This document shows positions 5,287-27,316 of a stretch of DNA of 46,425 bases, piece by piece (within the stretch, counting starts at the first letter, position 1; each line of letters starts with the position of its first letter). Below the pieces are notes generated by a model. That model saw only the letters and a program-made list of their open reading frames with translations, was not told the origin of the DNA and searched no databases. The DNA lies in assembly GCA_905067555.1 (NCBI GenBank), contig CAJHIS010000005.1:1-46425 (forward strand), given 5' to 3'. Origin of the DNA: Candidatus Argoarchaeum ethanivorans. GTDB taxonomy: Archaea; Halobacteriota; Methanosarcinia; Methanosarcinales; EX4572-44. Both the position numbers and the translations under genes were made by a program.

Positions 5287-5832
5287 ATGAATATCACAAT
5301 CCTTCGAATCGGGCACAGGCAATGGCGCGATGCACGGGTAACCACACACGTAGGACTTACAGCAAGAGCTCTTGGAGCAGATAGCATGCTTCTTGCCGGA
5401 AGCGATAAACATGTGAAAGAGAGCATCGAAAAAGTAACAGAATGCTGGGGTGGAAACTTCACTGTACATAACAATATTGATTGGAAAAAAAGAGTAGTAC
5501 AGTGGAAGAAGGACGGTGGAAAAATTATACACCTGACCATGTACGGCGTTAGCATACAAGAGGCACTGCCCCAGATACACACAGATGATAAACTGTTGAT
5601 AATAGTTGGTGCAGAAAAGGTGCCATCAGAACTGTACCAGATTGCAGACTTGAATGTTGCAGTTGGCAACCAGCCGCATTCAGAAATAGCAGCCCTTGCA
5701 ATATTTCTTGATAGACTTAATATAAAACAAGGAATAGATTCATTCACACGCAACTATCCAGGTGGTAAATGCAAGATAATACCACAGGCACATGGGAAAA
5801 AGGTAATAAAAGATGAGATTAAATATGCTTAA
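5287..5832 (+). CDS. tRNA (cytidine(56)-2'-O)-methyltransferase aTrm56
   Basis: A 181-residue archaeal SPOUT-family methyltransferase that 2'-O-methylates C56 in the T-loop of tRNAs using SAM. The start is ATG 5287, giving MNITILRIGHRQWRDARVTTHV, the conserved beginning of the family; the frame opens further upstream but without homology. The deep-knot region is near LLIIVGAEKVPSELY and VAVGNQPHSEIAALAIFLDRL. It is followed by a hairpin-repeat pair and DUF166 on the same strand. Confidence 0.92.
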   Translation: MNITILRIGHRQWRDARVTTHVGLTARALGADSMLLAGSDKHVKESIEKVTECWGGNFTVHNNIDWKKRVVQWKKDGGKIIHLTMYGVSIQEALPQIHTDDKLLIIVGAEKVPSELYQIADLNVAVGNQPHSEIAALAIFLDRLNIKQGIDSFTRNYPGGKCKIIPQAHGKKVIKDEIKYA

Positions 5833-5836
5833 CGCA

Positions 5837-5902
5837 CTGCACAACTTCGTTGTGCAGAAAATAACAGGTAGCTTTCAATTCTCGATCGCGCTAGCAATCG
5901 AG
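5837..5902. repeat. pair of dispersed hairpin palindromes
   Basis: First hairpin 5837-5857: arms CTGCACAAC / GTTGTGCAG with TTC loop. Second hairpin 5881-5902: arms CTCGAT / ATCGAG, extended by imperfect pairing around a CGCGCTAGCA centre. The spacer begins AAAATAACAGGTA, identical to the spacer in the 11596-11706 cluster read on the other strand. The pair fills the gap between aTrm56 and DUF166. Confidence 0.85.
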
Positions 5903-5919
5903 AAAGGAAACACATACGA

Positions 5920-8630: not shown

Positions 8631-9965
8631 ATGAAACCGGATTTCTATGACATTAGAACTGTTGAGGTAACGGCATCTTCAATAGTCCTTGATAACAATG
8701 AGATTAAAGAGACCACAAACAACTTTATTACAGGCGCAAGCATCCGTGCATTAATAAACGGAAGCTGGGGGATTGCAACTACTGAAAACATTGAGCACAC
8801 AGAGAGGGCATTATCAACTGCAACTGAAATTGCTTTATCAACCAACCGGAAAACACCAAGAGAAAAGGTTGAATTGGCGATAGTCAACCAACCGGAAATA
8901 AAAAACCTTCCTGCAGTCAAGGAAGATTTCAAAGACATTGATCTTGAAGAGAAACTCGAGCTGGTAAAAGAGGTAGCAAAAGCAGCACAGAAACCAGGTA
9001 TTACAAGCGTGAGTACCTCCTATATGGAATCAGAAGTTACTGTAGAATACATAAATTCGGAAGGGATTAAGGCAAGCTATACGCTGCCGCGAATCGGATT
9101 TACCGTTGCAGCCGTTGCAAAACAGAATGGCAATTACCAGATAGCACGGGATAATCGCTTTGCAATATCCGGTTTTGAACTATTTGCCAAACACGATGCC
9201 TGCGAGATTGCATCAAAGACCGCAGATATCGCAATCGATCTCATTCATGCAAAAAGTGTAAAAGGCGGAGTTATGCCAGTAATACTTGATACTGAACTTG
9301 CAGGCGTGTTTATCCACGAAGCAGTGGGACATGCAGCAGAAGCTGACCACGTGCTTGAAGGAAACTCGGTACTTGAAGACAAGCTTCATACACAGATCGC
9401 ATCGCCGCTTGTTACAGTATGTGACGACTCATCCATGCATGAATATGGCTACTATCCGTTCGATGACGAAGGTTCACAGTCAGGCAAAACTGTTTTGATA
9501 GAAAACGGCGTGCTCAAAAACTACCTTCACAACAGGGAGAGTGCTTCAAAATTCGGAGGAACGCCGCACAATGCCAGAGCACAGGGGTATTCAATGCCAG
9601 TCATCCGCATGAGTAATACGTACCTCGAAAACGGCAGTACCACCTTTGAAGAAATGAAAGATGAGATAAAAAATGGCGTATATCTTATCGGCTCACGCGG
9701 GGGACAGGTAAATCCCGGAGATGGCATCTTTCAGTTCAGTGCCGAGCGAGGATATATGATTGAAAATGGTGAACTGACAACACTTCTAAAAGATGTGTCT
9801 CTTTCAGGAAGCATCCTTGAGATACTCAAAAATGTTGCTGCCGTTGGATGCGATCTCAAGATGCGGTCAGGGCAGTGCGGCAAAGCAGGACAGCTTGTTC
9901 CGGTATCAGACGGCTCACCACACGTACTTGTAACAAACACACTCGTTGGAGGAACCGGATGCTAA
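8631..9965 (+). CDS. tldD: TldD metalloprotease subunit
   Basis: A 444-residue member of the TldD/PmbA (U62) family. TldD forms a heterodimer with TldE/PmbA and degrades unfolded peptides. The zinc site HEAVGHAAEADH starts near residue 229. The conserved SRGGQVNPGDGIFQFS and C-terminal KMRSGQCGKAGQLVPVSDG segments are present. The gene starts 3 bp after lonB. Its last codons (VGGTGC, stop TAA 9963-9965) overlap the first copy of a duplicated pmbA start region. Confidence 0.95.
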   Translation: MKPDFYDIRTVEVTASSIVLDNNEIKETTNNFITGASIRALINGSWGIATTENIEHTERALSTATEIALSTNRKTPREKVELAIVNQPEIKNLPAVKEDFKDIDLEEKLELVKEVAKAAQKPGITSVSTSYMESEVTVEYINSEGIKASYTLPRIGFTVAAVAKQNGNYQIARDNRFAISGFELFAKHDACEIASKTADIAIDLIHAKSVKGGVMPVILDTELAGVFIHEAVGHAAEADHVLEGNSVLEDKLHTQIASPLVTVCDDSSMHEYGYYPFDDEGSQSGKTVLIENGVLKNYLHNRESASKFGGTPHNARAQGYSMPVIRMSNTYLENGSTTFEEMKDEIKNGVYLIGSRGGQVNPGDGIFQFSAERGYMIENGELTTLLKDVSLSGSILEILKNVAAVGCDLKMRSGQCGKAGQLVPVSDGSPHVLVTNTLVGGTGC

Positions 9966-10099
9966 ATATAGAAGAAACACTGCACAACTTCGTTGTGCAG
10001 AACTACACACTCCGTGTGCAGAAACAATTCTCGATTGTGATAGCAATCGAGTGCAGAAACAACGTTGGAGGCACTGGATGCTAAATATAGAAAAAGCAC
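9944..10099 (+). repeat. duplicated tldD/pmbA junction flanking hairpins
   Basis: Positions 9944-9980 and 10063-10099 are direct repeats, 37 bp with 4 mismatches. Each copy encodes the VGGTGC ending of tldD in one frame and the MLNIE start of pmbA in another. Between them lie three hairpin palindromes. The first copy could start a 41-residue open frame (9959-10084) ending again in VGGTGC. The simplest reading is duplication of the original overlapping stop/start junction when the hairpin cluster was inserted. Confidence 0.85.
9980..10051. repeat. cluster of three hairpin palindromes
   Basis: 9980-10000: CTGCACAAC / GTTGTGCAG, TTC loop. 10003-10021: CTACACAC / GTGTGCAG, TCC loop, one A-C mismatch. 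10030-10051: CTCGATTG / CAATCGAG around TGATAG. Spacers are AGAA- and AGAAACAATT-like, as in the other clusters. Confidence 0.85.
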
Positions 10100-27021: not shown

Positions 27022-27316
27022 AATAAAGACATTAACTTGGTATTTTGATTTAAAAGCATATCTATCATTTCAAATAATTTCTTTCTATACCTTATGCAAA
27101 GCACCATGTTGTATCATATTTTATAAACGCAAGGGCTTGCATGTTTCAACTCGACCATTAATGTTCTTATATACCCACGCTTAAAAAACTGCACAACTTC
27201 GTTGTGCAGAAAATAACCAGCAAGAGAATGTTCTGCGTTTATACTTTCCTATACGTTAAAAAAAATCTCGCTCCGTGGCTTGTCCCAACCGCAAGCTCTG
27301 CTGCGTGGTATAGTAA
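27022..27316. other. repeat-rich region upstream of nifS
   Basis: No gene. It holds the minus-strand nifS leader and a mosaic of the long dispersed repeat split by a hairpin palindrome. The minus-strand string GCGTTTATAAAATATG inside the repeat resembles a TATA box but is about 100 bases before the nifS start. Confidence 0.6.

Follow-up and report, generated by a model that had tools for sequence, protein, structure and literature searches.

The boundary between tldD and pmbA in an ethane-oxidising archaeon raises the question of how a cluster of hairpins could enter an operon without destroying either of the genes that it separates. We analysed a stretch of 46,425 nt (the window) from a GoM-Arc1 ethane oxidiser (Argoarchaeum/Ethanoperedens) whose genome, G000, is 57% complete, and compared it with its nearest named relatives, Ca. 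Ethanoperedens thermophilum (G001), GoM-Arc1-GOS (G002) and Ca. Argoarchaeum ethanivorans (G003), which are GoM-Arc1 ethane oxidisers of the same genus, and with two genomes of the same family (G004 and G005). All genomes compared are MAGs; G000, G001 and G002 are incomplete, and G004 is 94% complete. Full-length comparison and scanning covered G003 (1.94 Mb) and 484 kb of G000.

An earlier note on this DNA had described a 37-bp segment with the tldD stop and the pmbA start that is present twice, with 4 mismatches, on either side of three hairpins. The duplication stands, but its length is 38 nt (34/38 identical, start-to-start spacing of 119 nt), and folding places three hairpins between the copies (Table 1), separated by GTGCAGAA-type linkers. 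TldD ends in VGGTGC and PmbA begins with MLNIE, as had been reported, with a Shine-Dalgarno-like GGAGG 5´ of both ATGs. Both proteins are complete and matched TldD/PmbA models, with scores under NCBI's strict cut-offs. The 81-nt insert gave a folding MFE z-score of -3.2, and equal stability was reached in 1/200 shuffles; no Rfam model matched the window at gathering thresholds. A chance origin of the repeat was rejected, since same-locus repeats at hairpin sites far outnumber both between-locus repeats of the flanks and repeats at random places in the genome. An assembly artefact is unlikely, given related structures in independent MAGs.

Table 1. Features of the tldD/pmbA junction and further hairpin copies in the window
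Feature	Start	End	Strand	Basis or remark
tldD, intact, 444 aa; stop TAA 9963-9965 lies in duplication copy 1	8631	9965	+	ORF, NCBIfam TldD
Target duplication copy 1: tldD 3´ end, GGAGG 9948-9952, redundant pmbA ATG 9959	9944	9981	+	single-copy counterpart in G001, G004 and G005
Mini-ORF, 41 aa, copy-1 start to copy-2 stop, MLNIEETLHNFVVQNYTLRVQKQFSIVIAIECRNNVGGTGC then stop	9959	10084	+	arrangement seen at 12/14 junction loci, this one included
Hairpin 1, A type, CTGCACAAC-TTC-GTTGTGCAG	9980	10000	+	commonest stem of G003
Inserted hairpin element, 81 nt: A hairpin, short CACAC hairpin, B hairpin, GTGCAGAAACAA linkers	9982	10062	+	
Hairpin 2, short, CACAC/GTGTG	10003	10021	+	
Hairpin 3, B type, CTCGATTG...CAATCGAG	10030	10051	+	covarying stem family
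Target duplication copy 2: GGAGG 10067-10071, functional pmbA start 10078, redundant tldD stop 10082-10084	10063	10100	+	
pmbA/tldE-like gene, intact, 437 aa	10078	11391	+	
Hairpin family copy	5839	5912	+	without counterpart at the matching place of G003
Hairpin family copy	6565	6627	-	
Hairpin cluster, 3´ of pmbA	11587	11704	-	
Single A hairpin of the family	27191	27211	+	
Hairpin cluster	32520	32572	-	
B hairpin of the family	36439	36486	-	

Alignment of the junction with relatives that lack the hairpins, the check proposed in the earlier note, gave a single copy in G001, G004 and G005, and no relative was seen to carry both copies without a hairpin. The note's reading of the locus as the product of an insertion with a long target duplication, or of a template switch, is supported by these single-copy sites and by the recurrence of long duplications described below. 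The junction is also duplicated in G002 and G003 (~38 nt, small indels permitted), there around another insert, a B-type hairpin of ~34-40 nt in the opposite orientation. This site was either hit twice independently or received one ancestral insertion whose content was later replaced, and tldD distances are ambiguous on the order of events. Turnover of content in a fixed site has a precedent at G000 C1:39213-39400 (39255) and G003 C40:97816-97950, where a shared pair of ~32-nt duplications flanks 130 nt of hairpins in one of the two species but 66 nt of different sequence in its counterpart. Since the presence and absence of inserts is not tree-like among the four species, some inserts must also have been lost when their repeats recombined, or genes must have been exchanged.

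The inserted hairpins belong to a dispersed family. By BLAST against its own genome the 81-nt insert matches 56 places in G000, and among 60 relatives searched the hairpin part was confined to the four genomes of the genus; the family was not detected in the 94%-complete G004. G003 holds 541 perfect hairpins with a stem of at least 8, among which a few stem sequences dominate (TGCACAAC, TYGAYTRC, TGCAAAGC, CTGCATAC). The B stem covaries, with a Watson-Crick pair in 200/222, 214/222 and 211/222 copies at its three variable positions and both pair types at each. Complete three-hairpin units start with CTGCAC and end with GTGCAG, and 16 of the 20 dated single-hairpin inserts lie outside ORFs. A recurring intergenic stretch resembling TATCGAATTTCAATAGCAAGAGA...GTTTATACTTTCCTATACGTT often adjoins hairpin clusters (window 27200-27260; L003, L006, L036, L051, L062). 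We also noted a second hairpin family, CCGYATCGC...GCGATRCGG, likewise inside long target duplications (G003 C4:31814, G003 C13:101440, G001 C17). The open-licence literature yielded nothing matching this hairpin family or long duplications of hairpin repeats.

The tldD/pmbA event exemplifies a process found across the genus. Flanking direct repeats were found at 29/204 hairpin clusters in G003 and 12/64 in G000, compared with 6/713 random places, and the same events came up in an unbiased search for direct duplications with a gap. In 23 single-hairpin events, the duplication has a median of 34 nt (range 23-58) and the insert one of 39 nt (34-50), while the net gain, with a median of 73 nt, falls mostly at 65-77 nt; perfect duplication copies with sharp ends measure 29, 30, 32 and 36 nt. 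Between G000 and G003, polymorphic hairpin inserts face empty sites in the other genome, and their duplications measure 20, 20, 35, 38 and 39 nt; further empty sites were present in G002 at fpoD/H (25-nt overlap), C8:43352 and C6:19182 (~60-nt overlap). Single-copy sites in relatives establish insertion with target duplication, confirmed in this way at several loci, and many other loci show the same structure. Similarity likewise identifies the single-hairpin inserts as copied fragments of larger dispersed hairpin arrays: for 18/20, another stretch of the genome resembles at least 90% of their length, in some cases with 36-38 nt identical. On the target side, AC or ACC adjoins the hairpin at 11/20 sites, against a background of 8.5%.

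About 85% of hairpin clusters have no flanking repeat, indicating that the repeats decay or that many clusters insert otherwise. Polymorphic inserts without a clear duplication, which run counter to the rule of long duplications, occur at C5:5821 in G000 and at C5:29751 and C7:10562 in G003; the first two correspond to positions 5821-5912 of the window, with 68 nt gained in G000, and 29751, with 150 nt gained in G003. At G000 C7:35329-35439, three copies of a 35-nt target alternate with two hairpins, the inserted unit apparently having been amplified. Two patterns were set aside. A constant total of insert and duplication (r=-0.72) was mostly an artefact of the period limit of 60-80 (r=-0.31 without it), and hairpin-free gapped duplications with periods of 66, 69, 72 and 75, mostly multiples of three, are probably coding repeats.

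We defined a junction locus as a duplication that covers both the stop codon of an upstream gene and the start codon of its downstream neighbour, the two genes sharing a strand and each ORF having at least 90 codons. A systematic search yielded at least 14, among them fpoD/fpoH-like genes, uL1/uL10, topoisomerase VI B/A, a frhB-like/formate-dehydrogenase-like pair and tldD/pmbA; at C12:4574, position is the sole basis for naming the gene 3´ of fpoH fpoI. At 12/14 loci the copy-1 start is in frame with the copy-2 stop and the path between them is open, where 1/3 is expected for frame alone (binomial p=8.2e-5, or 2.1e-4 with tldD/pmbA excluded). The idea of coupling grew out of the first few loci, and the count then took in every locus. 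The frame is not kept at C40:97816/G000 C1:39213 and at G000 C7:35329, and it splits 2/2 among the weaker candidates that were excluded (C40:73942, G000 C8:4425, G000 C1:45898 and G003 C4 minus strand 187587). In G001 the C8 junction holds a different hairpin, and here the frame is likewise kept (MNKTLYSVSYCDAGIIPPSFEVE then stop, read off the sequence).

Archaeal termination-reinitiation is documented (PMC6728339, PMC10666635); it requires genes that overlap or lie very close together and frequently links subunits of complexes. The duplicated stop-start rebuilds this geometry twice. Retention of the frame at 12/14 loci suggests selection for termination-reinitiation coupling, and selection would thereby preserve coupling across the junction inserts. 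The statement that the element entered the operon without destroying either gene agrees with what we found at tldD/pmbA, where both genes are intact and the coupling frame is also kept.

Taken together, the tldD/pmbA feature is best explained (rough probability 0.62) as the scar of an insertion in which a hairpin fragment from a genus-restricted dispersed family probably entered the junction, duplicating ~38 nt of the target, with selection for frame. That the target is duplicated and not deleted argues for a nick on each strand, the two set tens of nt from one another, with subsequent fill-in: the nicks would lie about 20-60 nt apart, a hairpin fragment would be joined in, and filling of the long single-stranded gaps would produce the duplication. 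At gene junctions, selection would retain only inserts whose duplication contains a stop, a ribosome-binding site and a start, and whose length leaves stop 2 in the frame of start 1. After finishing the upstream gene, a ribosome could then reinitiate, translate the short linker ORF as far as stop 2, terminate there and reinitiate once more on the downstream gene.

The chief alternative is template switching in which the return point always lies behind the point of departure. At a stalled fork, the growing strand could jump to a distant hairpin array, copy ~35-45 nt and return 25-40 nt behind, with no integrase involved. Such template switching fits the inserts as copied array fragments, some of which break off within the loop of the following hairpin, and the variability of insert boundaries and duplication lengths; the AC/ACC beside the hairpin could be microhomology, and the iterated target-hairpin units at G000 C7:35329 are also of this kind. 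It should yield deletions as well, however, whereas nearly all dated events duplicate the target, and insert and net sizes are rather narrow for a free process, so we regard it as possible but unlikely. Ectopic spacer integration, in which Cas1-Cas2 would insert hairpin fragments like spacers off-array and duplicate a repeat-length stretch, draws on a likeness in size, with inserts of ~34-46 nt, duplications of ~25-40 nt and a net gain, mostly 63-77 nt, that overlaps the repeat-plus-spacer periods of the genome's own CRISPR arrays (66-68 and 72-79). Three CRISPR arrays lie in G003, at C5 (L234:679-2500), C6 (L133:529-1300) and C30 (L235:15777-16400), with repeats of 37, 30 and 37 nt and spacers mostly of 35-38 nt. 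All three repeats end in AC, and AC/ACC is also favoured on the target side of the hairpin; G001, G003 and G004 encode cas1, and off-target Cas1-Cas2 integration has been observed in vitro at sites like the leader-repeat junction (PMC6895254). Against this, duplication length ranges over 23-58 nt where exactly 30 or 37 would be expected, the inserts are hairpin-specific and sit outside any array, array spacers lack hairpins (the module is in 0/43), and no cas1 was detected in G000 and G002, both incomplete genomes. We consider this route improbable. A broader version, in which a Cas1-Cas2-like or otherwise undescribed integrase would insert spacer-sized hairpin fragments genome-wide with repeat-length duplications, the units settling in essential overlapping operons as tiny translated linkers, is a speculative reading with somewhat better odds.

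Mobilisation of the REP or IS200/IS605 type, by Y1 (HUH) transposases acting on hairpins, would accord with Y1 transposase genes in 6/6 genomes searched and with a short hairpin that has a conserved dinucleotide at its foot. The family resembles REP/BIME elements in its short, high-copy, mainly extragenic hairpins, palindromes of 20-40 nt, mosaic clusters and occurrence in genomes with Y1 genes, but its copies share no conserved GTAG/CGTC tag of the kind that marks REPs, the conserved foot being, by inspection, AC/ACC before CTGCA. Members of IS200/IS605 produce no larger target duplications (PMC2817692), whereas long duplications with empty sites are found here, and IS200/605-type transposition appears very improbable as the source. 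Hairpin clusters occur ~160-340 nt upstream of intact IS200-like Y1 genes (G001 C57; G003 C40:107193, C4:163122 and C10:16156). The hairpins are unlikely to be ends of local IS200-like elements, since the surrounding sequence is not shared among Y1 loci, and their position by Y1 genes appears incidental. SINE-like, target-primed reverse transcription of a small structured RNA would explain variable duplications with one end fixed at the hairpin and the far end variable, as well as the strong stem covariation, and one reverse transcriptase is encoded in G003. None was found in the other five genomes (G004 94% complete, G000-G002 incomplete), there is no sign of an RNA gene or a 3´ tail, and the chances of this route are slimmer still.

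Usual target duplications of miniature inverted-repeat elements (MITEs) run from a few to ~10 nt; those here, at 20-58 nt, are far longer and variable, and the modular content of the inserts varies. Terminal inverted repeats with a short, fixed-length duplication are not what we found, the 6-nt ends CTGCAC/GTGCAG occurring only in full three-hairpin units, and no parent transposon was found for the hairpin inserts. The likeness is to the small size, non-coding nature and direct-repeat flanks of prokaryotic MITEs, in which direct repeats flank young copies (PMC10969869). Rickettsia palindromic elements are small, translatable palindromic inserts tolerated by essential genes (PMC3733652). Those elements extend a protein, whereas the hairpin inserts here lie between two genes, where they give rise to a linker ORF. 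In fungal mitochondria, double-hairpin elements are two-hairpin mobile units in mosaics; they are not known to have a long target duplication, and the type of genome differs.

Small dispersed palindromes are common in prokaryotes, and their mode of movement is mostly unknown. Before-and-after sites in close relatives, together with an unusually long duplication, narrow the possible mechanisms. The duplication explains the entry of non-coding repeats into overlapping essential operons, including those for a respiratory complex, ribosomal proteins and topoisomerase VI, and the retained frame predicts selection on archaeal termination-reinitiation coupling at these junctions. Junction inserts that survive mostly leave both genes whole and their translation probably linked, essential operons included.
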